Virus record (IMG/VR): IMGVR_UViG_3300027896_001999
Coordinates: 1-64,000 of that record
Strand: one strand, 5' to 3'
Length of the DNA: 64,000 nt
DNA from: a virus
Program-made: the position numbers and the translations under genes
In this document: piece after piece, positions 35,596-63,140 of the stretch
How positions within the stretch are numbered: position 1 is the first letter of the stretch
Layout: each line of letters opens with the position of its first letter
Notes under the pieces: model-generated
Seen by the model: the letters and a program-made list of their open reading frames with translations, nothing else
What the model was told of the DNA's origin: nothing
The model's database searches: none

Positions 35596-37185
35596 TCAAG
35601 TTGCCATCGTTAAGATTTTCTTAGCTAAGCACATATAATTGAAGGCATGAAAATAGTGATCCGGACCCGATTCCACCCATTCATACCTATCTTTCTCTTC
35701 ATTATAGCTTCGTACGGAACTGGACATCTGATCATACAAATCTTTGATACTCCGCGCATTCGCCGGTAGAACCATCTTCTGTAAGACAAACGACTCCTTC
35801 AACGTATCTAATGACACCGTTCTATCGGCACTCAAAATACAGTCTTTCACATTCACTATGAGTTCTTTCTTGAACTGGCTGTAATAACAAAGGAATCCGA
35901 CCTTATACAAAGAGCTCAGTTTCCGTGCGAACCTGGTTTCAGGAAGAGCGTCTATGACGTATATCTTTACTCTGAACCGCTTAAATATTTCAATGATTTC
36001 GTAAGGCTCTTGAATCGGAATCTCTGCGACGTACACTATTCGTATCGTGTCGTTCACCGGAAGACCGATGACAATGTGACAGAGCGTTCCAACGTCGATG
36101 CCCGCAATAGTTGGATACGTACACGATTCGGGCATGTGATACGTTTCGTCTACACAATCATCTAAAGACTGTTCAGTGAGCCTGGATCCTTCCGCGGTAA
36201 ACGATTCACCAAGATCGGAGTTATAGAACCGCTGAAGCTTATAATCATTCTCAAGTGCTTTTGAAAAATTATCAACCAGCCCAAGTAGAGTTGAAGCGCC
36301 ACTGAACAAGCGCGATACATGCTTTCCGCTGAACTCCGCTTGATCTACCTCATTCACATACTCGCCGTACCCAAATCGGTCAAAAGGCTTATCGCATATA
36401 TCACAGATCGGGCGGACGTCTCGTCCAACACCGATCTCAAACTTCTTGTCTCGAATTACATAAGTGTTGTCTTCAACTTGTCTAACAACATGCTTAAAGA
36501 AGTCTATCTGAATTCTATGACCACAATCAGCATTGATGAACCACCTGGACTTCGTTGACAGGTTAAACTTTTGATCTAAGAAAGACCCGACGAATGTTGG
36601 GTTTCCTACATAGATTTCATGTGGATCGCTGGAATGACCCAACCGCTCTAAGCCCATCTGAAGACGGTTCGCATCGCACTTATCTGCTTCGTCAACTATA
36701 AAGAAGTCCGCCGGAATTTCAATGAAGGGTACATCGCTCCCGCTTCCAGCGAAGTTGATCACTCCTTTCCCTATATCTTTAAGCGATCGGTTATCAATGT
36801 TTTCCTTTCTGTAAGCCTGACTCCGTCCTATCGCTCTTTGAGTTCTGTAATGATCTGTATAGAATAAAGACTTTTCAAATCGGTTAGAAACGAATCTGTT
36901 CTTGAGTTGATCTGTTGGTAAGACATAGAACACTACGAAACCCTCGTTCGCTGCGTTCCAACTTATTATAATCAAACACTCAGAGATACCGCCCTGAGTG
37001 GACTTCTTCAGGACACGCTTTTTAGCAGTGTCCATTAAGATTGCCTTTAAGTAGAAGTGACCCTTGAAGGTCATCTTTTTGTTTGTATGAGTACGATGAT
37101 GATTCACGGCAAGCCAGAGGGTCTTGTGTCTATGCTCTAAGTAGATTCCGAACTCCTTTGCACCGATGACTCCATCATCCTTCAT
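35596..37185 (-). CDS. terL: Terminase large subunit (gpA-like)
   Basis: 529 residues from ATG 37185, which overlaps the small-subunit stop by 11 bases; a longer start at 37224 would overlap 50 bases. The ATPase has a Walker A variant STQGGISE (about residues 62-69) and Walker B FFIVDEAD (~161-168). A zinc-type segment CGH...CDICDKP follows, as in gpA terminases. The nuclease half shows AGIDVG (first Asp), YVIDALPE (second) and SGPDHYFHAFNY (third Asp and His), a complete RNase H-like set. It drives DNA packaging through the portal. Confidence 0.9.
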   Translation of the reverse strand: MKDDGVIGAKEFGIYLEHRHKTLWLAVNHHRTHTNKKMTFKGHFYLKAILMDTAKKRVLKKSTQGGISECLIIISWNAANEGFVVFYVLPTDQLKNRFVSNRFEKSLFYTDHYRTQRAIGRSQAYRKENIDNRSLKDIGKGVINFAGSGSDVPFIEIPADFFIVDEADKCDANRLQMGLERLGHSSDPHEIYVGNPTFVGSFLDQKFNLSTKSRWFINADCGHRIQIDFFKHVVRQVEDNTYVIRDKKFEIGVGRDVRPICDICDKPFDRFGYGEYVNEVDQAEFSGKHVSRLFSGASTLLGLVDNFSKALENDYKLQRFYNSDLGESFTAEGSRLTEQSLDDCVDETYHMPESCTYPTIAGIDVGTLCHIVIGLPVNDTIRIVYVAEIPIQEPYEIIEIFKRFRVKIYVIDALPETRFARKLSSLYKVGFLCYYSQFKKELIVNVKDCILSADRTVSLDTLKESFVLQKMVLPANARSIKDLYDQMSSSVRSYNEEKDRYEWVESGPDHYFHAFNYMCLAKKILTMAT

Positions 37186-37603
37186 TGTTTGTTTTCTTGT
37201 CTTTAAACTTTTTTGGGTTACCAAGCAAGGTTCCGTACTCTTCTTCTATCCTCTTGGTTTCTTCTGGATCTTCTTTGTTCAAGTTCACATTGACATTGAG
37301 ATCCTTAACTCCTTTCCCAAGAGCGGTAAAGAAGTCCTTATACAGCACCTGAGCAAGGTCGGTCGTCGCTTTAAACGCGGTCTTTTCATCTTCCGAGTCC
37401 ATGAACCTACGAAGCTTAGCAATTATCTTTTCTCGTTCCTCAATTAAAAAAATAGCAAGGCGGTCTTGGAATTCTTTATCTTCGTCCGCCTCCGCTCGCT
37501 CTGTGTCAGTAAGACCAACCTTTACATACGCCATCTCCTTGTCGAAGGTCTTAGAATAAGATTGTACGATTAACTCCTTTTGCTCGTCAGTGACCATCTC
37601 CAT
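37175..37603 (-). CDS. terS: Terminase small subunit
   Basis: 142 residues, first gene of the leftward operon. N-terminal helix-turn-helix-like start (VTDEQKELIVQSYSKTFDKEMAYVKVGLTDTERAEADEDKEFQDRL) as in small terminases that recognise the packaging site, then a long oligomerisation helix (REKIIAKLRRFMDSEDEKTAFKATTDLAQVLYKDFFTAL) and a Lys-rich tail. RBS GAGG 13 bases upstream of ATG. Directly precedes terL. Confidence 0.8.
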   Translation of the reverse strand: MEMVTDEQKELIVQSYSKTFDKEMAYVKVGLTDTERAEADEDKEFQDRLAIFLIEEREKIIAKLRRFMDSEDEKTAFKATTDLAQVLYKDFFTALGKGVKDLNVNVNLNKEDPEETKRIEEEYGTLLGNPKKFKDKKTNNEG

Positions 37604-39429: not shown

Positions 39430-39453
39430 ACATTACCCGCTTACGAAACTTAA

Positions 39454-39481
39454 AAGAGCCCTGTAGAAATACAGGGCTCTT
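39454..39481. terminator. Strong 12-bp hairpin, likely bidirectional terminator
   Basis: AAGAGCCCTGTA, loop GAAA, TACAGGGCTCTT: a perfect 12-bp stem 25 bases after the stop at 39429. On the minus strand it is followed by TTTTAAG, so it would end leftward transcripts best; on the plus strand only CTT follows. It separates the first rightward operon from the non-coding block. Confidence 0.6.
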
Positions 39482-39965
39482 CGCGCATGTACCCTGTATC
39501 TTATTACAAGTAAATCTACGGACTCCTGTAGACTCTTTAAATCTGCCGGCCAATAGTACGCTACTGCTTTAATATTAAAACCCCGCCTGGACCTGCCTGG
39601 AGTCACTGTATAGCTATTTTAACAAGGTACAACAAGTTCTTCTATACACTACAATAAACGGCTCCGTGCTCTTTCTACAGACTCTTGTACGCTCTTTTAA
39701 ATAGACGCCCAGTACAAGTCCACCCGCCCGGGAAACAAAGAGTCCCTATATAGGATATATTTACACAGTAGAGCCCTTATATGACAAATTTCCAGTTCCG
39801 GTCAAGTTGCTTTCTCAAACTATAAGAAGATGGTGTGAACGGACATGGAAGAATGTCCATCTCCGGTCGCTCTTCAAAATTTTTTTAAGGTTATGTAATT
39901 TTGTACTCAATGTACTCAAAAACGGGCAAGCCTTTACTATACAAATTTTTATAAAAACTATTTCT

Positions 39966-40176
39966 AAAAGCTCATAAAATAAAGGGCTCCGTCAATTACA
40001 AAAATTTTAAAAAAACCCTGTTGAGTACAAAATTACATAATTATACAGATTTTGGAGTCTAAAAAAATGAACCCCCAAAAATTAAGATTCCAAAAAGTGT
40101 ATAATTATGTAATTTTGTACTCAAGAAAAAATTATAAAAAAGTAATTTTTAAAAGTGTAATGTTTTATGAGCTTTT
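39966..40176. repeat. 211-bp concentric palindrome
   Basis: Outer arms AAAAGCTCATAAAA (39966-39979) and TTTTATGAGCTTTT (40163-40176) are perfect 14-bp complements. Inner arms at 40021-40047 and 40098-40124 are a perfect 27-bp inverted repeat, extended by an imperfect 11 bp each (TTTTGGAGTCT with AGATTCCAAAA). Both pairs share nearly the same centre (about 40072), leaving a 24-nt loop. It can extrude as a cruciform or be transcribed into a long hairpin. Confidence 0.75.
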
Positions 40177-40329
40177 GGAAAAAGTGACTATACAAATTTG
40201 TACGTTAGACTGAGTACAAAGTTCACCCCTTATAGCCGTACTCAACGAACTGAAAACTTTAATTTTATATATAAATTTATATATACAAAATAAACGGGAG
40301 TTTTTTTACAGGGTTTGTAAATAAAGTTC

Positions 40330-40359
40330 TTTACATATATATAATAAATAATGTATATT
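40330..40359 (+). promoter_or_regulatory. Rightward promoter for the 40-63 kb operon
   Basis: TTTACA, an 18-bp spacer and TATATT in an AATGTATATTTTA context that matches the -10 region at 38066. Transcription should start near 40366, about 30 bases before the leader ORF and the heptanucleotide repeat. Confidence 0.5.
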
Positions 40360-40395
40360 TTACTTAATTATTATTCTCACACAAGACGAACGGAG

Positions 40396-40458
40396 ATGGT
40401 TATTGGTTATTGGTTATTGGTTATTGGTTATTGGTTATTGGTCATTGGTTATTTATGA
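40396..40458 (+). CDS. 20-aa leader peptide encoded in the heptanucleotide repeat
   Basis: ATG 40396 follows CGGAG and reads MVIGYWLLVIGYWLLVIGYL before a TGA (40456-40458) that overlaps the ATG of the HTH protein (40455) as ATGA. It has the only plausible RBS here, so the downstream gene, which lacks its own, may depend on translational coupling. Each change of one 7-bp unit shifts the frame and would uncouple the two or fuse them. Hydrophobic; probably regulatory. Confidence 0.45.
   Translation: MVIGYWLLVIGYWLLVIGYL
40398..40453 (+). repeat. Tandem heptanucleotide repeat (GGTTATT)8
   Basis: Eight contiguous units GGTTATT, the seventh being GGTCATT, between a promoter and the first codon of a DNA-binding protein. 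The unit length is not a multiple of three and the tract is translated, the arrangement of slipped-strand phase-variable switches in bacteria. Confidence 0.85.
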
Positions 40459-42059: not shown

Positions 42060-42081
42060 AAGAAAGGAGAACGAAGAATGA
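42046..42081 (+). repeat. 36-bp direct repeat, left copy
   Basis: TTCCTAAGAAATAAAAGAAA followed by GGAGAACGAAGAATGA, identical to 42747-42782. It contains the last codons of the 53-aa gene, a purine-rich leader with RBS AAGGAG, and the ATG of the next gene. A 26-bp part recurs at 42951-42976. Confidence 0.85.
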
Positions 42082-42743
42082 GTATTAAAATTAAGAACAG
42101 ATTTAAAGGCACAGTAATTCTATCGGGAGAATATGAAAGTTTAAAGGATTGCTTAGAAAAAAATTCCGGAGCCGATTTATCCGGAGCCGATTTACCCGGA
42201 GCCAATTTATACAGAGCCAATTTATCCGAAGCCGATTTATCCGGAGCCGATTTATCCGGAGCCAATTTACACAGAGCCAATTTACACAGAGCCGATTTAT
42301 CCGGAGCCTATTTAACCGAAGCCTATTTAACCGGAGCCTATTTAACCGGAGCCAATTTATCCGGAGTCTATTTAACCGGGGCCGATTTAACCGGAGCCCA
42401 TTTATCCGGAGTCTGTTTAACCGGAGCCGATTTATCCGGAGCCCATTTAACCGGAGCCAATTTATCCGGAGCCAATTTAACCGGAACCAATTTATCCGGA
42501 GCCTATTTAACCGGAGCCAATTTAACCGGAGCCAAAGGAATAATCCTTCCCGTAATTTCAATATCCGGTACTCGAAATAATTTTTATTATTACAATGGGA
42601 TCGTAAGAATCGGATGCGAAAGCCATACAGTTGATGAATGGATGGAAAAATACGTAAAAATCGGCGCGCAGGCAAATTACACGGAATCGGAAATCTCTGA
42701 ATATTATCAGTATATTAAATTTTGCGCGGGAATTAAAGTTTAA
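42078..42743 (+). CDS. Pentapeptide-repeat protein
   Basis: 221 residues. After ~30 residues there are about 25 near-perfect A(D/N)LSG-type pentapeptides (residues ~32-155; e.g. ADLSGADLPGANLYRANLSE), encoded by a 15-bp DNA repeat, then a short C-terminal domain with SHTVDEWMEKYVKIG. This forms the square right-handed beta-helix seen in MfpA/Qnr DNA mimics and many phage proteins. The flanking 36-bp repeats suggest insertion or duplication as a unit. Possible roles: gyrase protection or protein-protein scaffold; not provable here. Confidence 0.85.
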   Translation: MSIKIKNRFKGTVILSGEYESLKDCLEKNSGADLSGADLPGANLYRANLSEADLSGADLSGANLHRANLHRADLSGAYLTEAYLTGAYLTGANLSGVYLTGADLTGAHLSGVCLTGADLSGAHLTGANLSGANLTGTNLSGAYLTGANLTGAKGIILPVISISGTRNNFYYYNGIVRIGCESHTVDEWMEKYVKIGAQANYTESEISEYYQYIKFCAGIKV

Positions 42744-43682: not shown

Positions 43683-43786
43683 AATTTAAGTTTGAACCAC
43701 TTGCATGGTTGTTCACATCTCTATTGGTATTGGTCATAGTATGGAATATCTTTTTAATATTCCTTCTATGTGGAGGTGTGAAGTGA
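43679..43786 (+). CDS. 35-aa single-pass membrane protein
   Basis: ATG overlaps the previous stop. MKFKFEPLAWLFTSLLVLVI then VWNIFLIFLLCGGVK: one long transmembrane segment with a short cytoplasmic start. Its GGAGG (43772-43776) serves as RBS for the ligase. Unknown role, perhaps superinfection exclusion; not supported beyond topology. Confidence 0.5.
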   Translation: MKFKFEPLAWLFTSLLVLVIVWNIFLIFLLCGGVK

Positions 43787-44700
43787 ACAATGGGTACACG
43801 ATGAAAATACGAGGCAAGTTCCCTCTTGCGGAACAAGCGAAGGAAAAGGGGAATCTTAGAGATGGGTTCTTCTCCGTCCCATTTGACTGGAGCAAAGACT
43901 ATATATGCCAAGAGAAGCAAGATGGATGGAACGCGGTGGTCATAAAAGAGAACGAGGAAACACGATGGGATGCGGAATGGTCGATGTATTCTGCTCTCCA
44001 AGCTATGTTGCCTACATTGAACAAGTATTTGCCAGACAACTCCATCCTTGTGGGCGAAGCAGGGTACGGAACGAATTCAGAGACAGAACTCGCATTGAAG
44101 AATGGTTATCATAGATTTGTAATATTTGATGTCATTCAATGGGAAGGGAAGAATGTTTGCTCATGGACGACCGAGGAACGGCTTAAGATCATTCAGGAAC
44201 ATCAAGATAAGTATTCTCGGTATCCCAAAATACAAGTGGTACCAACTATCTATCTCACTGCGGGGAACAATCAAGAAGCTTGCTGGTCGTTCTTTAAAAG
44301 TATTGTAGACCGGGGAGGAGAGGGTTGCGTTCTAAAAGAAATGGGTGCCCCATATATCATCGGTGGCGAAACGAAACAGATGTACAAGATAAAGAAATTT
44401 TTAACTAAAGATTTCGTGTTGCTGGGATTTGAAGGGACTGACTCACTCACGTATCTAGAACAGGGAATGACTGTGAGTGCGATGTATTGCGGACTCTATG
44501 TGAATGGGGTATTGACGAACGTCACAAAGACCAGTGGATTTAATTTTAAATGGCGAAAGGCGTTCTCCGATCATCCGGAGCTATATATTGGTAGAGTCGT
44601 AGAGCTGGGTGGGAATGAGATATTTAAGACAGGGGCGATGCGTCACTCATCGTTTTTAAGATTCAGAGATGACCGGAAACCTGAGGAGTGTACGCTATGA
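43783..44700 (+). CDS. ATP-dependent DNA ligase
   Basis: 305 residues from GTG 43783, with GGAGG 6 bases upstream and GTGA overlap with the preceding stop; ATG 43801 without RBS is the alternative. Nucleotidyltransferase motifs are in order: I, K45-x-D-G in CQEKQDGWNAVV (the adenylated lysine); III, LVGEAGY; IV, GGEGCVLKE; V, MYKIKKF. An OB-fold follows. It seals nicks during phage replication or recombination. The EAGYG and C-terminal pattern fit DNA more than RNA ligase; that distinction is moderately sure. Confidence 0.82.
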   Translation: MNNGYTMKIRGKFPLAEQAKEKGNLRDGFFSVPFDWSKDYICQEKQDGWNAVVIKENEETRWDAEWSMYSALQAMLPTLNKYLPDNSILVGEAGYGTNSETELALKNGYHRFVIFDVIQWEGKNVCSWTTEERLKIIQEHQDKYSRYPKIQVVPTIYLTAGNNQEACWSFFKSIVDRGGEGCVLKEMGAPYIIGGETKQMYKIKKFLTKDFVLLGFEGTDSLTYLEQGMTVSAMYCGLYVNGVLTNVTKTSGFNFKWRKAFSDHPELYIGRVVELGGNEIFKTGAMRHSSFLRFRDDRKPEECTL

Positions 44701-44852
44701 CAGTTGAAGCAAGAGTCGATGGTAAAGAATATATTTATATAGAAGAAGTAGATGTATGGCAATGCTGTTACTGTGGTGTCCACGCTGATAAGATAGAGAA
44801 CGTAAAGCATTATGATGGATGTAAAGAAGAACATTATGATTATAATGAATAG
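44697..44852 (+). CDS. 51-aa protein with zinc-finger-like Cys cluster
   Basis: ATG 44697 overlaps the ligase stop. MTVEARVDGKEYIYIEEVDV, then WQCCYCGVHADKIENVKHYDGC: Cys-x2-Cys and a later His/Cys pair could bind zinc. Its stop lies in the 5' strand of the RNA stem described next. Confidence 0.55.
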   Translation: MTVEARVDGKEYIYIEEVDVWQCCYCGVHADKIENVKHYDGCKEEHYDYNE

Positions 44853-45007
44853 GTCAGGGCATGGTGGAATAAGGCAACTCGTTTCCGGAAATAGGTTGTT
44901 AGACACGACCTGCAGTTCGCTACTGCTTTGCTACCAAGTGCAAATTGTGGAACTTGGTGTGAAGGTAGAATTCCTACGGGAACTCAAGTCCTTCTGCCCT
45001 GACCTAT
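44849..45007 (+). ncRNA. Structured RNA candidate closed by a 13-bp stem
   Basis: ATAGGTCAGGGCA (44849-44861) and TGCCCTGACCTAT (44995-45007) are perfect complements 133 bases apart. Inside are local hairpins: the palindrome TTTCCGGAAA, AGGTTG-TTAGACA-CGACCT, GCAGT-TCGCT-ACTGC, ACCAAGT-(12 nt)-ACTTGGT, and TTCC-TACG-GGAA with a UNCG-class loop. The only ORF spanning it (44812-45033) has no RBS, overlaps a better gene and looks non-protein-like. I do not recognise the class. It could be a regulatory RNA or processing element of the early operon. Confidence 0.6.
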
Positions 45008-45052
45008 CCATTATATGGATGGTAAAAGAATAATACAAAAGGAGAAAGTCTT

Positions 45053-45415
45053 ATGGGAAAGAATTACAAAATGATGGTAGAAGGAAGAGAAGACAAAGAC
45101 AATGTCTTATTGAAGACATTTGAAAACCTTGAACTGGAAGAAGCGAAGATCCAGGGAGAGAGTTTGATAATGGACTGGGAGGAAGAATACGAAAACTTTA
45201 TAGATGAACATGAAGATAACGAAACCATAAGCCTCGAGATGTTCTGCTCTAAGGTATTGCCTGAACTGAAAAGCGACGATGAGAGTGTGCTACTGCTCAG
45301 TGAAGATGGGGAAGAACAATTTATATACGAAGGGAATTGGGAACTCTATTCTGATGACATAGAAGTAGTTGATGACGATATAGAGGACGAAGACGAAGAA
45401 GAGGTGACTGAGTAA
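45053..45415 (+). CDS. Acidic hypothetical protein
   Basis: 120 residues, RBS AAGGAG. Beta-alpha start (YKMMVEGREDKDNVLLKTFENLELEEAKIQGESLI), very acidic end (DDIEVVDDDIEDEDEEEVTE). The charge is typical of phage proteins that mimic DNA or bind basic host factors, but nothing specific is seen. TAATG overlap with the next gene. Confidence 0.55.
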   Translation: MGKNYKMMVEGREDKDNVLLKTFENLELEEAKIQGESLIMDWEEEYENFIDEHEDNETISLEMFCSKVLPELKSDDESVLLLSEDGEEQFIYEGNWELYSDDIEVVDDDIEDEDEEEVTE

Positions 45416-50651: not shown

Positions 50652-50828
50652 ATGAGCGATAAAAAAGTGTACTTGGGGGATTCAGTGTACGTAGAATACG
50701 ATGGGTATAATTTTGTACTGACCACAGATAATGGTATGGGTGCATCAAACACCATTGTACTGGAACCGACTGTGTACGTTGCACTAACAAGATTCGTAAA
50801 CAATTTAAAGAATAAGGAAGGTGGATGA
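50652..50828 (+). CDS. Conserved 58-aa phage protein
   Basis: RBS GAGGAAA. SDKKVYLGDSVYVEYDGYNFVLTTDNGMGASNTIVLEPTVYVALTRFV: a short all-beta protein whose pattern 'V-Y-L-G-D-x-x-Y-V-x-x-D-G ... I-x-L-E-P-x-V' recurs widely in phages. No known function. Confidence 0.6.
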   Translation: MSDKKVYLGDSVYVEYDGYNFVLTTDNGMGASNTIVLEPTVYVALTRFVNNLKNKEGG

Positions 50829-50829
50829 T

Positions 50830-51723
50830 ATGCCAATAACAAAAGATTTACTTGACAAGAAAAACTACATGATCGGAATTCCGTCGAGAGAACGGAGCTT
50901 CATGATAAGGGAAAGAAAAGGTTTGTGGTTACACACAGACCCCATTGAGAAATACCCTGTGAGAGCCATTGTGAGAGAAAGTGAAAAGGACAATTATGAA
51001 ATGGTTCCGGCCATACTTTGTCCAGACTCTTGCACTATTGCTAACAAGAGACAAAGATTAATGGAATACGCCATTGCTTGCAATTACGAATTTCTTTTTA
51101 TCATAGATGACGACGTGGCGCTCTATTATAGGGATGAAAATTTATCCTCTAAATACACATCCAAGCGAGAGACATTTCAGGCTGAGGATTGCTTTAATCG
51201 TATTCTTTATGAAGCGATTATGCTCTGTGGGGAGAAGGCACCGATAATTGGACTTCCGTTGAAGTTGGGCAGTTTCGGACTGAAATGGAAATTCCCTAAA
51301 AATATTCCCGTAATAAGATTCGTCTGTTATCATGTTCCAACTCTGGTGAAAGAAAACATAAAGATGGATGGCATGGGGACGATGTTCATGAGTGACAGAT
51401 TCACTCACCTTTCACTTTTGAACAAAGGGTATTATTCACTAAGCAACTGCGGGTATGCAGTTGGGGATCAGGGGACTGGATATAAAGGAGGGTGCAGTGT
51501 AACCAGAACAGTCGAACTCCAGTCTGCCTCGGCCATTGCTTTAAGAGATGCTTTTCCGAATCATGTTGAATTGAAAATTAAAAACAATGGGCTCTGGGAC
51601 GCGGAAAGATTGGACTGCCGTATCTCATGGCGGAAGTTCTTAAAAGAAGGAGAAAGCAATTTCCTACCAGCAGAGGAAGGGAAAAGATTAATCGAAAGCG
51701 AGGGGTATAGATGCAGAATATAG
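50830..51723 (+). CDS. GT-A glycosyltransferase-like, TET-associated (TAGT/GREF) type
   Basis: 297 residues from ATG 50830 (RBS AAGGTGG; GTG 50821 is possible). GT-A features: PSRERSF near the start, ANKRQRLMEYAIACNYEFLFIIDDDVALY with the D-D-D metal/UDP-binding motif at ~97-99, and later KYPRIC-like basic stretches. Its downstream paralog (52577-53452) shares PS-R/K-D/E-R-S, DDDV and VPTLV. Such enzymes glycosylate modified bases in phage DNA (TAGT family). First gene of the base-modification operon, beside the aGPT-PPlase. Sugar and acceptor are unknown. Confidence 0.7.
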   Translation: MPITKDLLDKKNYMIGIPSRERSFMIRERKGLWLHTDPIEKYPVRAIVRESEKDNYEMVPAILCPDSCTIANKRQRLMEYAIACNYEFLFIIDDDVALYYRDENLSSKYTSKRETFQAEDCFNRILYEAIMLCGEKAPIIGLPLKLGSFGLKWKFPKNIPVIRFVCYHVPTLVKENIKMDGMGTMFMSDRFTHLSLLNKGYYSLSNCGYAVGDQGTGYKGGCSVTRTVELQSASAIALRDAFPNHVELKIKNNGLWDAERLDCRISWRKFLKEGESNFLPAEEGKRLIESEGYRCRI

Positions 51724-52574
51724 ATTTCAACCAAAAATTCTTAGACAAGTTCATTGAAGTCGCGATAGAGAGACATAAGATATATAAGCTCCGAGAAAGT
51801 GGAGCTCCCCGTCCTTGGACGAACAACGAAATTCTACGGGACTTCTTCTTTTGCAATCTCTTTCGGCAATACGACAGATGTTCAAAATGGATTATAGAAA
51901 ACATAGTTCCTTATGAAAGGTGGGATCTACTGGTTCTGTATCGTTTCATTTCAACGTACACCACATTTGAACATATAAAAGCATCATGCCAATTAGACAA
52001 CTTACCACTTATCCATGATCTATTAAGAGAAATGAAAAATGCAGATTTGAAGATCTTCAGCGGATGTTTTATCCGGAATCCCAGAATCCCGGGTGGTTGG
52101 ACTGAAACTTACAATGTTCCATTTGTTTTGATAGACGAAATAAAGAAAGATGGCACCATTGAATTGGTAATAGCTCTTAATTCTTTAAAGAAGATGGTAG
52201 ACTACTTTTCAAGATTCCCTGGTACAAAATTCTTCATGGGGTACGAATACGCATGTGATCTTGAATACACCAAGTTCTTTAACCCAACCGATAAATTTAC
52301 GTGGGCGAACATGGGGCCAGGAGCGATGAGAGGCATGAGTCTACTGCTCCATGGGAGTGCTTTCCAAAAGATGAAGCAAGACTTTTGGTTAGAGAAAGCA
52401 CAAGAGCTACTGGGAATCATGACCAAGGAAGTCGGTTCCATATTCCCTGAGGAAACCATCACTATGCGGGAAGTAGAACATCAATTATGCGAATTCCAAA
52501 AGTATGTAAAATATGGTTCTATGTCCGAGGGAAGTGAAAGAGTGAAGCATAGAAAATTCAACGGGAGTATATAG
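51711..52574 (+). CDS. Alpha-glutamyl/putrescinyl-thymine pyrophosphorylase-like protein
   Basis: 287 residues. ERHKIYKLRESGAPRPWTNNEILRDFFFCNLFRQYDRCSKWI matches the N-terminal signature of the aGPT-PPlase families ('R-x-x-I-x-x-x-x-x-x-G-x-x-x-P-W-T-x-D-x-I-L-x-x-x-x-F-x-N-x-F-R-x-x-D-R'), which replace pyrophosphorylated 5-hydroxymethyl-thymine with an amine or amino acid in DNA. The C-terminal part has FTWANMGPGAMRGM and REVEHQLCEFQKYVKY. Overlaps the glycosyltransferase by 13 bases. Strong marker of hypermodified pyrimidines. Confidence 0.8.
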   Translation: MQNIDFNQKFLDKFIEVAIERHKIYKLRESGAPRPWTNNEILRDFFFCNLFRQYDRCSKWIIENIVPYERWDLLVLYRFISTYTTFEHIKASCQLDNLPLIHDLLREMKNADLKIFSGCFIRNPRIPGGWTETYNVPFVLIDEIKKDGTIELVIALNSLKKMVDYFSRFPGTKFFMGYEYACDLEYTKFFNPTDKFTWANMGPGAMRGMSLLLHGSAFQKMKQDFWLEKAQELLGIMTKEVGSIFPEETITMREVEHQLCEFQKYVKYGSMSEGSERVKHRKFNGSI

Positions 52575-52576
52575 AT

Positions 52577-53452
52577 ATGAAACACGCAACAATAATTCCG
52601 TCTAAAGACCGGTCTCATCTATTACTTAGATATGCGGATCTGCCGGCACGGAGATTCAATCATCCAATATTCAATACAAAGTTATGGGTGAGCGAAAAGG
52701 AGTACGACACGTATAAGAAAGTGGTAGACGAACTGCGATTGGAACACGTGGAACTGATCGCCGACGATCATGCTAATATAGCGGAATGCCGTCAGAATAT
52801 CTTAATGTATTGCCACGAACATGGGTATGATTATTTATTCTCGCCGGATGACGATGTGCGGTTCCATGCAAGAGAAAGTAATTGGAAAGTAGTTCCATTA
52901 GAGCTGGAGGAAAACGTAAATCTCTTCAATCACATGTCGTCTATCTGTAGTACGGAAGTTCCTCTGGTTTCACTTCGATACAGATTCATGGTCCAGAATT
53001 GCAATACAGCTTATGAGAAGAATTATAAAATCATTATTTTGTATTTCGTTCACGTTCCAACGTTGGTGAACAATGGCGTTTCTTTTAAGCATGAAGGGTT
53101 TCAATTCTACGAAGACAAATATATGCAACTACAACTCTATTCAAAGGGATTCCGTTCCTGCACTTCATCTATGTATGCGACATCTCAACGTCAGCCAGAT
53201 AACACAGAAGGAGGTTGCTTCGCTTATAGAAACATAGAAGAGGCTAATCGTCACTCGCGGATTATGCACGAAGAGTGGCCCGAGTACTCGAAGCTGGTGA
53301 TTAAGAATAGTTGGAAGGAAGGTCCAAGGTTAGAGAACATATGGTACTTCAAAAAATTTTTAAAACCAGATGAATTACGGTATTTCCCAAAAGAACAGAT
53401 GGAACGATTTATGGGAAGAGAAGGTGCTTATAGGCTGGAGGTCCCTGTATGA
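52577..53452 (+). CDS. Second GT-A glycosyltransferase-like enzyme
   Basis: 291 residues. ATIIPSKDRSHLL, ADDHANIAECRQNILMYCHEHGYDYLFSPDDDVRFH (D-D-D motif ~93-95) and the paralogous closing stretch ENIWYFKKFLKPDELRYFPKEQ parallel the enzyme at 50830-51723. Two different GT-A enzymes suggest two sugars or sugar plus chain extension. RBS GGGAG; ends ATGA-coupled to the inserted HNH gene. Confidence 0.7.
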   Translation: MKHATIIPSKDRSHLLLRYADLPARRFNHPIFNTKLWVSEKEYDTYKKVVDELRLEHVELIADDHANIAECRQNILMYCHEHGYDYLFSPDDDVRFHARESNWKVVPLELEENVNLFNHMSSICSTEVPLVSLRYRFMVQNCNTAYEKNYKIIILYFVHVPTLVNNGVSFKHEGFQFYEDKYMQLQLYSKGFRSCTSSMYATSQRQPDNTEGGCFAYRNIEEANRHSRIMHEEWPEYSKLVIKNSWKEGPRLENIWYFKKFLKPDELRYFPKEQMERFMGREGAYRLEVPV

Positions 53453-53907
53453 TCTATGCGGAAGTGGTAGTTGGTAGAAGAAAAATAAGAGCCATAGAAT
53501 ACGAAGTCAATGAGAATGGGTGCTGGATCTGTACGAGTCACTGCTTAGCTTATGGGTATCCTGTAATAGAATTAAACGGAACTAAGAAGTTAAGCCGAGT
53601 TGTCTTGGAACGGTCTTTGGGAAGAAAAATAAAAGAAGGGCTTTGGGCTCTTCATAAGTGCAACAATCGTGCATGTATCAATCCAGAGCATCTGTATGAA
53701 GGCACTCCGGAGGAAAATACAAAGGATTCTATGGAAGCGGGAACCCTTGTTTCTAAGCTGACAGAAGCTCGGGTCTTAGAAATAAGAAAGTCTACTTTGT
53801 CTGGTTCTAAGTTGGGGAAGATTTATGGGTGACCAGAAAATGCATCAATGAGATTAAAAGAAGAGACACATGGAAGCACGTTAAGGAGAAACAAGATGGA
53901 GTATAGT
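53449..53907 (+). pseudogene. HNH endonuclease with frameshifted C-terminal HTH
   Basis: The HNH domain is intact: NGCWICTSHCLAYGYPVI, RVVLERSLGRKIKEGL and HKCNNRACINPEHLYEG. Its HTH begins (SKLTEARVLEIRKSTLSGSKLGKIYG) and then hits TGA at 53830. In the next frame VTRKCINEIKRRDTWKHVKE continues to 53907, matching the intact relative at 62658; one base (GGTGTGG to GGGTGA) is missing. Truncated product 127 aa keeps the nuclease but loses half the DNA-binding domain. The 3' end overlaps the radical SAM start. Confidence 0.65.
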
Positions 53908-54972
53908 AAAGAACGAGTAGAACAACTACGAAAAAACAAACTGACTGTCTTCGAAGACATTCATTATTTAAAAGTCGAACCCAGTCATATCTGTAATCGT
54001 AAATGCAATTTCTGTGGAATCTCCCACAGAGAGTCTGGCATGATGACTATGGAAACTTTTAATAATCTTATAAATGGAGCAGGGAATTCCCTGAAAAGAA
54101 TAGACTTTAGTCTTCAGGGAGAACCGACACTCAATCCCTTGCTACCAGACATGATTGAATTGGTTAGGAACGATTATCCTGATTGCCAAATAATGGTTAT
54201 ATCTAACATGGACAAGATCAAAAGAGAAGGGATGGAATGGTTGTTTGATTTATATGACAGAGGTCTCAATATTTTACAAGCAGATTTATATGACAACGAC
54301 ACAGAGCGATGGTTCTTAGATGATGTAAGAAAACATAAAGAGCACTTTATAAAACGAGACATAGCACTGCACAATGTATATGAAACTAACGATAACCCTT
54401 TCCACTATGCTGGACCAAAGAAGAAGGATATTTATTATATAGTAGAACGATCTGACCATGATGATATGGTTGGTAAAAAGAATTCGGCACGCAATATCCA
54501 TACTTGGGGAGGCAATCTTCCTTTAGAGAAATGGGAACCCTATGGATTATCTTTATCTGACTTCCCTATGAAAAAGAAATGTACGGAGCCTTTGAAATAT
54601 GCCACTATCCGTTTCAATGGCGAGGTTGCTCCTTGTTGCTTTGACGGCGCATGCACAACGACTATTGGAAATGTTAATGACGAACCCATAAATGACATCT
54701 GGAAAGGCAAGAATTTCCAAATGATAAGATTAGTAGCTTCCCTCGGAATGCGAGAAATGATGCTCCCATGTATTCTATGTAATAGATTAAGTTTTAGAAT
54801 TGGTTTGAATCCATACTGGGGGAAAGAGTACTCTTTACAAGAAGTGATAGAAACTCTTAGAACTATCCAAGTTTTATACAAAGAAGAATCTTTATATGGA
54901 AATCTAATGGAATTGAGATCTACTCGTAATCTTCCTCTACATATACAGGAGTTGATAAGCAATGCTCGATAA
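53896..54972 (+). CDS. Radical SAM-SPASM enzyme 1
   Basis: 358 residues from ATG 53896 (RBS AAGGAG, 7 bases). The 4Fe-4S site CNRKCNFC (C-x3-C-x2-C) lies at residues ~33-40, followed by the SAM-binding QGEPTLNPLL. The SPASM-type tail has CTEPLKYATIRFNGEVAPCC ... PCILCN for auxiliary clusters. Such enzymes carry out radical chemistry on peptides or, in phages, on modified nucleobases. Paralog of the next gene. Substrate unknown; position argues for the modified base. Confidence 0.85.
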   Translation: MEYSKERVEQLRKNKLTVFEDIHYLKVEPSHICNRKCNFCGISHRESGMMTMETFNNLINGAGNSLKRIDFSLQGEPTLNPLLPDMIELVRNDYPDCQIMVISNMDKIKREGMEWLFDLYDRGLNILQADLYDNDTERWFLDDVRKHKEHFIKRDIALHNVYETNDNPFHYAGPKKKDIYYIVERSDHDDMVGKKNSARNIHTWGGNLPLEKWEPYGLSLSDFPMKKKCTEPLKYATIRFNGEVAPCCFDGACTTTIGNVNDEPINDIWKGKNFQMIRLVASLGMREMMLPCILCNRLSFRIGLNPYWGKEYSLQEVIETLRTIQVLYKEESLYGNLMELRSTRNLPLHIQELISNAR

Positions 54973-56014
54973 AGAAAGAGTAGCCCATCTGAAGTCAAAG
55001 AATCTTACCGTATTCGAGGAAGTCTACAGCCTTCGCTTAGAGGTCTACAGCGGATGCAATCTAAACTGCTGGTCATGTGGTAGAGGAAGGACGAACCACG
55101 GTACGATGGATTTCTTTACGTTTGAAAAGATATTATCAGACCTCACTGATCGTTGCACTCGTATGGAATTTGGGGTTCAGGGGGAACCATCCCTTCATCC
55201 GGGGTTGGTAGATTTTGTAGCAATGGCAAGAAAAAGATTACCCAAGGCACAACTACTTATAATTTCAAATACAGAGGCTTTCCGTAATGATGGGCACTAT
55301 ACAGTAAAAAGTCTATTTGATGCAGGGTTGAACTTCCTTCACGCAGACATTTATAACGAAAGACAAATGGAGTGGATCTCAAAGTTGAACATAGAGGGAG
55401 TGTCTATTCAAGACTACTATAAACAGAATGTAAATGCCTTTTCTTACAAGGGAAATGCCCAAAAGACCATGATTATCACAAACGAAATTGAAGGGTTCGG
55501 AGCTACAAGAAGCGCCACAAGAGTTCCCCATAATTTTGGTGGGAACCTTCCATATATGCATTGGCAAAAATTGATAGGGATGCAGATAAAGGATTTTCCA
55601 TTAGAAAAGACTTGCGTAGAACCTCTCAAGTATATGACAGTCAACTGGAACGGAGACGTAAACTTGTGTTGCCGGGAAGGGGCGAAAGCTGTCGTAGTTG
55701 GAAACACCAACAACGAAAACCTGCAAGACATATGGCAGGGTGAAGCAATGCAGAAGATACGACTATTGCTATGTAATAAGAAACGAAAGGATATCATACC
55801 TTGCGTACTGTGTAATGCAAGATCTTTCCGTTCAGGGCTCTATCCATATTGGGGACCGTCGTACGGATATGAGGATATAATAAAAGACATTGATAAATAT
55901 TTTTCTTTAAACAAAAAAGAACACATGCATGAAAATCTATTGAGTCTGTTGAGCATAAAAGAATTACCCATACATATAACAAATTATCTAAGGAGGAAGG
56001 ACGAATGCAGTTAA
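54962..56014 (+). CDS. Radical SAM-SPASM enzyme 2
   Basis: 350 residues, overlapping the first by 11 bases. CNLNCWSC (C-x3-C-x2-C) at ~32-39, GVQGEPSLHPGL, and the C-terminal TCVEPLKYMTVNWNGDVNLCC ... PCVLCN. Shares with enzyme 1 the N-terminal DKERVAHLKSKNLTVFEEVYSL and the NFGGNLP/TWGGNLP motif, so it is a tandem duplication followed by divergence. Two sequential radical steps or a heterodimer are possible. Confidence 0.85.
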   Translation: MLDKERVAHLKSKNLTVFEEVYSLRLEVYSGCNLNCWSCGRGRTNHGTMDFFTFEKILSDLTDRCTRMEFGVQGEPSLHPGLVDFVAMARKRLPKAQLLIISNTEAFRNDGHYTVKSLFDAGLNFLHADIYNERQMEWISKLNIEGVSIQDYYKQNVNAFSYKGNAQKTMIITNEIEGFGATRSATRVPHNFGGNLPYMHWQKLIGMQIKDFPLEKTCVEPLKYMTVNWNGDVNLCCREGAKAVVVGNTNNENLQDIWQGEAMQKIRLLLCNKKRKDIIPCVLCNARSFRSGLYPYWGPSYGYEDIIKDIDKYFSLNKKEHMHENLLSLLSIKELPIHITNYLRRKDECS

Positions 56015-56595
56015 AAGATTATTTAGAAAAATATGATACCTTGAAGAACATCAAGCGTTTCAACATGGAAACGGTGATAGAGCCTCAAAATCTTTGCGAC
56101 CATGGACATGGTGTCGGAACTTTGTATTATCTATTGTGCAAAGAAATGGGGGTGCTTATTTCCGTAGACACTTTGTTTATGGTCATGAATCACGACTTCG
56201 CGGAAGCATACACAAGTGACCTGAACAGAAGGGTGAAGGATAAGACAAAAAAGACTTCAGAAGCATGGAAAGTAATAGAAAATTCCAATCTTCCTTTGTC
56301 GTTGATTTGTTGGACAGATGAATCCATAAAGAGTTCATTGGGTGGGTTTGATGAATCTATCCGGTACATGGTATTTCAAATCGCAGATGAATGGGAAGCC
56401 ATGCAATATTGCTTAAGGGAAGTCAACAAAGGTAATTCTTATATGAAAAGACCTCTTGGGGTCTACATGGAAATGGTTAATGAAAAGATAAGATCCCTTA
56501 GATCTTGCGGTAAGAATTATGAAATATGCTGTGACTATCTTCTTTTACTTATAGAAAGAATAGACGTAGAATACGACTTGGGGGCAAATATATGA
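56005..56595 (+). CDS. HD-domain phosphohydrolase, YfbR-like 5'-deoxyribonucleotidase
   Basis: 196 residues, RBS GGAGGAAGG. HD motifs: CDHGHGVGTLYYLLCK, then VMNHDFAEAYTSDL (H-D and the E-x-x-T-x-D signature of YfbR) and a late Asp in FQIADEWEA. YfbR-type enzymes dephosphorylate dNMPs. Here it may remove a competing canonical nucleotide so that the modified one is used. ATGA-coupled to the thymidylate-synthase-like gene. Confidence 0.7.
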   Translation: MQLKDYLEKYDTLKNIKRFNMETVIEPQNLCDHGHGVGTLYYLLCKEMGVLISVDTLFMVMNHDFAEAYTSDLNRRVKDKTKKTSEAWKVIENSNLPLSLICWTDESIKSSLGGFDESIRYMVFQIADEWEAMQYCLREVNKGNSYMKRPLGVYMEMVNEKIRSLRSCGKNYEICCDYLLLLIERIDVEYDLGANI

Positions 56596-57428
56596 ATCAC
56601 ATTATTGATGAATATGAAAGCATGAATAAAGCATACTTATCTCTTCTCTTCCAATTACTTAATAGTCCCACATATATTTCCACCACTCGGAAAGGGGAAA
56701 CCATATCCGAGATGCTTAATGCGGGGTTCATTTTGAAAGATCCTACAAAATGTTTTGCCACTTGCAGGAATATGTCTTTAAAGTATCTTGATGGGGAATT
56801 GGAGTTCTATTTAAGTGGAAGCCCTTATCTTAAGGACATAACCAAGCACTCTAAGTTCTGGGAGAAAGTCACAGATGATGATAGAACAGTGAATTCCAAT
56901 TATGGGAAACTACTATTCTATGACAGAAACCATCACAACTACACTCAGTTTGAATATGCTAAACGAATGTTGTTGGAAAATCCAGACAGTAAGAAAGCGG
57001 TCATGGTCATTTACAGTAAAGAAAACGCACACGACAGCCAGGACAATCCATGTACGATGTTCCTGCAATTTTTCATAAGGGAAAAGAAACTCCACCTCAT
57101 AGTAAAGATGCGCTCATCAGACATATGGTATGGTCTTCCGTACGATGTACCATTTTTTGTTTTCGTTCAGTACAAGATGTTGCATGCTCTTGAAAGATAT
57201 TATCCATCACTACGAATGGGTCTGTACAACCATCAGTCTGGTAGCCTTCATCTATACAGTAGGAATGCATCGGTGGCTCACAGTACTCTGAAAAGAGATA
57301 GAGAGCTTTGGGAAAATCTAAGTCTGACTGAGGAGTTCTTAGATTTTTGTGAATCGATTCAAACAGAGCTCTTTATCAAGTATATTAAAACCAAAGTAGG
57401 GGAGGGGAAAGGAGATGTCGAATATTGA
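56592..57428 (+). CDS. Thymidylate-synthase-family (deoxy)nucleotide hydroxymethylase
   Basis: 278 residues. Motifs: R33 in STTRKGE, the substrate loop ELEFYLSGSPYLKDI, catalytic C154 in DNPCTMFLQF, phosphate-binding R174-S-S-D177 and GLPYDVPFF. At the position of the dUMP-selecting Asn of thymidylate synthases there is Asp (D185), as in T4 dCMP hydroxymethylase, so it may make 5-hydroxymethyl-dCMP instead of acting on dUMP. The next gene but one is dCMP deaminase. Product assignment is open. Confidence 0.78.
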   Translation: MNHIIDEYESMNKAYLSLLFQLLNSPTYISTTRKGETISEMLNAGFILKDPTKCFATCRNMSLKYLDGELEFYLSGSPYLKDITKHSKFWEKVTDDDRTVNSNYGKLLFYDRNHHNYTQFEYAKRMLLENPDSKKAVMVIYSKENAHDSQDNPCTMFLQFFIREKKLHLIVKMRSSDIWYGLPYDVPFFVFVQYKMLHALERYYPSLRMGLYNHQSGSLHLYSRNASVAHSTLKRDRELWENLSLTEEFLDFCESIQTELFIKYIKTKVGEGKGDVEY

Positions 57429-57693
57429 AAGAATCATAGACCATAGGAATGGGAAATTGTCTTATGTAACCAAATCTTTGGTATTCCCCCCAGACGGAAG
57501 TGTGAAAAAGATTTGTTCAAAATGTAAAAAATCTTTACCAATAGAAAGTGGATTCCATGTGACTTCACGTATAAAAGGAGACACGAAATACTTGTATAAT
57601 CATTGCAAGTGTAAAGAGTGTAGAAGAGCAGAAAGAAGAAGCTACTATAAAGATGGACCAAAGATAATATCAAAAGGAGAAAAGAAGAAATGA
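57415..57693 (+). CDS. Zinc-ribbon protein, endonuclease-VII/HNH-like fragment
   Basis: 92 residues. ICSKCKKSLPIESGFHVTS ... YLYNHCKCKECRRAERRSY: two CxxC knuckles with the spacing of phage zinc ribbons that precede HNH/endonuclease VII domains, followed by a Lys-rich tail. No nuclease residues remain. Overlaps both neighbours by stop-start coupling. May bind DNA on its own. Confidence 0.55.
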   Translation: MSNIERIIDHRNGKLSYVTKSLVFPPDGSVKKICSKCKKSLPIESGFHVTSRIKGDTKYLYNHCKCKECRRAERRSYYKDGPKIISKGEKKK

Positions 57694-58169
57694 CTATACT
57701 CAAACCAAAAGATGTGGAAACTCTAATTCAAATGGCTCATGCTCAAACTCGTTTCTCTATGTGCCTTAAAAAGAAGGTTGGAGCAGCTCTATACAGCACC
57801 ACCGATAGAGCCATCTACGGATTAGGTCATGGGGGACCAAAGATTCCATGTAAAGAATGTGTAAGAAAAAAGTATGAATGGACTCAAGATGGGTGTTGGT
57901 CCATTCATGCAGAGATACGTGCAATATTTGATTATTTCAAAAAAGAAGGGTACAACAATCCATTCATTTCTTGTGTCATGTTCACCACCCATGGTCCTTG
58001 TGATGGGTGTTTGAAATATATGAACTATTTTGGGATAGGTTCTGTTGTCTACGATATCCCTTATCACAATGACTATTCAAAGTGGGTTGGAAAGATAAGA
58101 GTATTCTCTAAAGAAGAATATCTTAAGAACTGTTACGACATAGACGAACCATGGGAGCCAAAAGAATGA
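57690..58169 (+). CDS. dCMP deaminase
   Basis: 159 residues with the zinc-deaminase motif: HAEIRAI (His ligand and catalytic Glu) and PCDGCLKYM (PCxxC), in the order and spacing of deoxycytidylate deaminases. RFSMCLKKKVGAALYSTTDRAIYGLGHGGP is the usual N-terminal part. It makes dUMP from dCMP, feeding thymidylate or 5-hydroxymethyl-dUMP. ATGA coupling on both sides. Confidence 0.85.
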   Translation: MTILKPKDVETLIQMAHAQTRFSMCLKKKVGAALYSTTDRAIYGLGHGGPKIPCKECVRKKYEWTQDGCWSIHAEIRAIFDYFKKEGYNNPFISCVMFTTHGPCDGCLKYMNYFGIGSVVYDIPYHNDYSKWVGKIRVFSKEEYLKNCYDIDEPWEPKE

Positions 58170-62657: not shown

Positions 62658-63140
62658 ATGATCTATGCGGAAGTGGTCAGTTTAAGGAAAGGGTACAAAA
62701 GAAAATCCATTGAATACGAAGTCAATGAGAATGGGTGCTGGATCTGTACGAGTCATTACTTAAGAGATGGGTATCCTCAAATAGAGTCAAATAGAGAAAT
62801 GAAAAACTTGAACCGAGTCGTCTTAGAACGGTCTTTGGGGAGAAAGATAAAAGAAGGGTTTGGGGCTCTTCATAAATGTGGCAACAGAGTATGCATCAAT
62901 CCAGATCACATCTATGAAGGTTCTCGTGAAGACAATGCAAGGGATTCTAAAAGACATGGTACTTTCGTACAAGGAGAAGATCATCCAAAATCTAAGTTGA
63001 CGGAAGCTCAGGTCTTAGAGATAAGAAAATCCATTTTGTCTGGACCGGAGTTGGGTAAGATTTATGGTGTGGGAAGAGGTTGCATCAATAATATCAAAAG
63101 AAGAGTCACATGGAAACATCTTAAGGATCAACCATCATGA
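62658..63140 (+). CDS. HNH homing-type endonuclease with HTH
   Basis: 160 residues. HNH core NGCWICTSHYLRDGYPQIES, LERSLGRKIKEGFGALHKCGNRVCINPDHIYEGSREDN, then the C-terminal HTH SKLTEAQVLEIRKSILSGPELGKIYGVGRGCINNIKRRVTWKHL. Intact sister of the broken gene at 53449 (the N-terminal ~60 residues are nearly the same). Free-standing homing endonucleases of this type spread between phages. No intron or inserted target is visible. Confidence 0.82.
   Translation: MIYAEVVSLRKGYKRKSIEYEVNENGCWICTSHYLRDGYPQIESNREMKNLNRVVLERSLGRKIKEGFGALHKCGNRVCINPDHIYEGSREDNARDSKRHGTFVQGEDHPKSKLTEAQVLEIRKSILSGPELGKIYGVGRGCINNIKRRVTWKHLKDQPS

Follow-up and report, generated by a model that had tools for sequence, protein, structure and literature searches.

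A 175-base element in the early operon of a tailed phage is noncoding and probably encodes a small structured RNA. If the product is a discrete structured RNA, it is slightly more likely to be antisense to the operon than to be a spacer excised from it. The reading we favour, at a probability of roughly 0.35, is a discrete RNA made from the minus strand that would base-pair with the spacer of the operon, leaving the duplex open to RNase III. The evidence consists of an inverted repeat, missing coding signals and a fold that is not random.

The window analysed here, a stretch of 64,000 nt, comes from a viral record of 66,469 bases that also carries a terminase large subunit gene (35596-37224). 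The record is that of a tailed phage whose late half runs leftward and whose early half runs rightward. Within the early operon, a 51-aa zinc-finger-like gene follows an ATP-dependent DNA ligase gene (43705-44700), and the 200-nt gap between this small gene and the gene for a 120-aa acidic protein houses the element (Table 1). Family searches returned no match for either flanking protein. The surrounding genes all lie on the plus strand, which is the sole strand certain to be transcribed. A sequence-only reading had described the genes here as packed end to end, which is partly true; other gaps of 229, 399, 261, 248 and 980 nt are present.

Table 1 Positions of the element, its parts and the flanking genes, numbered from the first letter of the window
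Feature	Position	Strand	Details
51-aa gene	44697-44852	+	CxxC...HxxxxC, zinc-finger-like; Shine-Dalgarno GAGGAG upstream
Left arm, 21-nt inverted repeat	44841-44861		Spans the end of the 51-aa gene (final codons, TAG stop); from repeat search
Candidate minus-strand RNA, putative body	44853-45003	-	Predicted from promoter-like site and fold
133-nt interior	44862-44994	-	Five hairpins: 44994-44961, 44958-44933, 44926-44912, 44911-44893, 44886-44866
Right arm, 21-nt inverted repeat	44995-45015		From repeat search
Promoter-like site	45010-45038	-	TTGTAT (45038-45033), 17 nt, TATAAT (45015-45010)
120-aa acidic protein gene	45053-45415	+	Shine-Dalgarno AGGAG

Several other features of the window deserve record. 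At the turn between the late and early operons, positions 39430-40409 form a 980-nt AT-rich noncoding region where GAGTACAAAATTACATAATTATAC-type sites occur repeatedly and in inverted form, with 43-nt arms (40021-40063/40082-40124, 91%). In folding, no other part of the window departs further from expectation (z -9.5) than this region, which is probably the early control region or origin. Tandem 7-nt repeats (ggttatt) at 40395-40450 run on past 40410, where a predicted HTH gene begins, and form a possible slippage site. Further into the early operon, 42078-42743 encodes a pentapeptide-repeat protein (Pfam PF00805, E 2.8e-70), and the nearest relative has a repeat protein related to it. Genes of a thymine hypermodification pathway occupy 50821-58169: a 5-hmdU DNA kinase (51711-52574, E 1e-41), two TET-associated glycosyltransferase-like genes (50821 and 52577), and genes for radical SAM-like (53848), thymidylate-synthase-like (56592) and dCMP deaminase-like (57690) proteins. 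An HNH endonuclease gene lies at 53449-53832, and the N-terminal part of a second gene, at 62658-63140, is apparently paralogous to it; both are possible free-standing homing endonucleases.

Judged from its sequence, the 200-nt gap looks noncoding. A single open frame (73 aa, 44812-45033) runs across the element, and we rejected it as a protein-coding gene: it had no Pfam match, its codon score did not exceed that of stop-free stretches read off-frame, and it lacked the Shine-Dalgarno sequence that was present in 6/6 neighbouring genes checked. The missing Shine-Dalgarno and the ordinary codon score support the earlier statement that the region has no credible ORF.

The inverted repeat is larger than first described. 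A perfect 13-bp stem enclosing 133 nt had been noticed, and it is exact, with 44849-44861 pairing with 44995-45007; its perfect core stands, and its length was understated. On the plus strand the core is followed by one A-C mismatch (44848/45008) and then 7 further pairs, giving 21-nt arms that are 20/21 complementary (95%) at a spacing of 133 nt. On the minus strand the mismatch becomes a G-U pair, leaving the helix unbroken. In 25 Markov-simulated windows, perfect 13-bp repeats occurred at a mean of 0.16 per window, none with at least 6 G/C, and a 20/21 repeat was absent from all of them; across 518 kb of related-phage loci, 20/21 repeats came solely from one tandem array. Because the simulations offered no comparable repeat and these loci none outside that array, the closing stem is real and beyond chance. 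With 13 perfect pairs and 20/21 overall, it also has the length that RNase III needs, a 12-bp stem being enough for cleavage by the E. coli enzyme (PMC8708148). The element is GC-rich for its region (top 2% of 159-nt windows) and has TA at both edges, which is uninformative as a target-site duplication because the DNA is AT-rich.

Folding analyses separated the contribution of this stem from that of the interior. Nowhere in the window was a lower minimum free energy (MFE) found than in the element, at about -60 per 160 nt. Against shuffles the whole element scored z -4.3 on the plus strand and -6.1 on the minus strand, with no shuffle equally good. The closing stem alone accounts for much of this signal. 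The interior by itself was matched by 23/200 shuffles on the plus strand (z -1.24) and by 2/200 on the minus strand. When the closing stem was held constant and only the interior was shuffled, with 500 shuffles per strand and standard (Turner) parameters, 64/500 shuffles equalled the native MFE on the plus strand and 1/500 on the minus strand; for ensemble spread the corresponding counts were 330/500 and 1/500. Langdon parameters gave 0/400 for the minus strand and 12/400 for the plus strand, whereas Andronescu parameters reversed the ranking (4/400 on plus, z -2.3; 19/400 on minus). The minus strand thus has the stronger fold in two of the three parameter sets. Its hairpins were identical across all three, and the plus fold was different in each. 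These results qualify two earlier claims. The five plus-strand hairpins, including a UNCG-class loop (cUACGg), do appear in the MFE fold, but their standing beyond chance did not survive the arms-fixed test. The label of structured RNA candidate fits the fold z-scores, the noncoding status, the high local GC content and the lack of an Rfam class, but much of the plus-strand signal comes from the closing stem.

Context had divergent effects on the two strands. In 1.1 kb of natural sequence the predicted closing-stem probability was 0.02 on the plus strand and 1.0 on the minus strand, where it remained 1.0 in every context; on the plus strand it recovered in shorter contexts, to between 0.44 and 0.98 (the latter at 460 nt). 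One interior hairpin is continuous on the minus strand only, and another has a G-U pair on the plus strand that is a mismatch on the minus strand. As modelled, the interior leans to the minus strand. On either strand, a hairpin loop and the junction next to it are complementary (UUUGC/GCAAA, 44912-44958) and could form a pseudoknot, but the linker is probably too short.

A promoter-like site facing the element on the minus strand is consistent with this lean. It scores 8.09, the top of its 400-nt neighbourhood, and of the roughly 128,000 sites in the window 81 reach that score or better; it is a moderate match, under the cut-off of a strict consensus scan. A copy of TATAAT stands on each side of the element because the inverted repeat itself duplicates it. 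A minus transcript from this site would begin at the base of the closing stem. A terminator scan found no intrinsic terminator for such a transcript.

From these features we infer the transcription, strand, ends, pairing and cleavage of a minus-strand RNA. We hypothesize that the element gives rise to a separate structured RNA, about 150-175 nt long, whose transcription would start at the promoter-like site and run counter to the early operon; its closing helix of 21 pairs (one G-U) would be unbroken and enclose five hairpins. Since the operon mRNA carries its exact complement, this RNA would pair with the spacer between the 51-aa and 120-aa genes, and the host double-strand nuclease RNase III would cut the duplex, so that the flanking genes would be expressed less or separately. 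The RNA may also function in trans. We lean to the minus strand because of the interior shuffles, the stem probability, the G-U pairing and the promoter-like site; the 20/21 repeat, the z of -6.1 against -4.3, the arms-fixed result and the stability of the fold across parameters lean the same way. The missing homolog and terminator, the moderate promoter, the TATAAT copies that the repeat itself produces, the Andronescu ranking, the plus-strand G-U and the plus orientation of every surrounding gene count against it.

Phage antisense RNAs that work through RNase III are known, lambda OOP among them (PMC12197685). As with lambda OOP and P22 sar (PMC12197685), the candidate would be a small RNA transcribed opposite to a phage operon, close to the 3' end of a small gene, and by analogy RNase III action on the duplex would be the expected mode. 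Unlike those RNAs, the element overlaps the gene by about 12 nt only, is larger and multi-branched, lacks a terminator and has a target that is predicted from position.

Searches for relatives placed the element in no known family. Rfam 15 at gathering threshold returned 0 matches in the window, and a local scan to E 10 on both strands found none in the element, its best match (IMES-1, 12.7 bits, E 3) lying outside. An Rfam comparison, proposed when the element was first noticed, therefore matched no class on either strand, and assignment to a known RNA class was rejected at both thresholds. The phi29 pRNA, C4 antisense RNA and HEARO classes of Rfam are structured noncoding RNAs of similar size in or near phage genes, but the element matches none of them on either strand, even to E 10 in the local scan. 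A search for tRNA and tmRNA found none, and ribozyme activity has no support. Retron ncRNAs are likewise closed by repeats (a1/a2), but the reverse transcriptase gene that accompanies them did not occur among the early proteins scanned. At the DNA level, blastn found nothing similar in 50,697 phage records or 72,556 plasmid records. IMG/VR searches with the ligase, the primase and the 120-aa protein gave no close relatives, and a DNA polymerase search gave 27 related loci, the nearest 60% identical. The element was absent from the DNA-polymerase relatives searched, both as DNA and with single-sequence covariance models on both strands; the genes around it were likewise not kept in the related loci. 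Degenerate motif and arm patterns gave chance matches only in viral and genome collections, where terminal-repeat patterns gave isolated single arms, and a lone 20-nt arm match in a Bacteroidetes MAG was intergenic and had no partner arm; given the low sensitivity of single-sequence models and exact patterns, these results do not imply the absence of distant homologs. The record holds one copy of the element.

An excised plus-strand spacer is somewhat less likely than the antisense reading. Here the stem in the early operon mRNA would be an RNase III processing site that releases the structured fragment and separates the flanking messages; cutting would depend on translation, because a ribosome terminating on the 51-aa gene, whose stop codon lies in the first arm, would melt the stem. 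Phage T7 early mRNA and rRNA spacers or intervening sequences offer precedents. Gene order predicts transcription of this strand, the stem is longer than the roughly 12 bp sufficient for E. coli RNase III, and the enzyme is known to excise intervening sequences of 100-200 nt (PMC8708148). The stem is predicted with high probability at 460 nt, and the UNCG loop and the Andronescu result also belong to the plus strand. That strand nevertheless has an interior near chance with Turner parameters, a stem that is outcompeted in 1.1 kb and an A-C mismatch within the arm. Stems of T7 early mRNA and intervening sequences of 23S rRNA (PMC8708148) share with the element a long stem in a phage early operon and 100-200 nt between the arms, respectively; the element differs in not lying in rRNA, in a multi-branched insert closing the stem in place of the T7 hairpin form, and in cleavage that is only predicted.

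The terminal inverted repeat, the strongest feature of the element, would also be explained at the level of DNA, by a miniature insertion (175 bp, 21-bp terminal repeats, TA edges) or a protein-binding or cruciform site whose RNA fold is a by-product. We consider this unlikely. Occurrence in one genome, absence from the relatives searched and a composition without the purine excess seen on the operon plus strand fit such an origin, and miniature inverted-repeat transposable elements (MITEs) are similarly short and noncoding, with terminal inverted repeats and possible TA edges. In contrast to MITEs, the element is single copy, without a parent transposon or copies elsewhere: phages and plasmids hold none, and the pattern searches yielded unpaired arms. 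TA edges say little in AT-rich DNA, and a minus interior that folds better than chance would be unexpected. Still more improbable is a neutral intergenic origin, in which the repeat is due to chance or in decay and has no function. This reading accords with the lack of detectable conservation, the several other gaps of the operon and the many windows and repeats implicitly examined, but a 20/21 repeat arose in 0/25 simulated windows and nowhere in the 518 kb of relatives outside the tandem array, and the element has the lowest MFE of the window. Least probable, in our view, is an undescribed class: a multi-branched phage RNA with its own promoter and 21-pair helix, transcribed counter to the early operon, that targets the phage's own early message or a host factor. 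The element is ordinary in kind, probably a phage small RNA or processing element, and new as a sequence.

Beyond model phages, catalogues of small phage RNAs are poor. A processing stem or an insertion would be nothing unusual; a discrete RNA, antisense or other, would add an orphan without an Rfam relative. Both strands of such elements should be tested, as the strand with the stronger fold in two of three parameter sets is here not the coding one.
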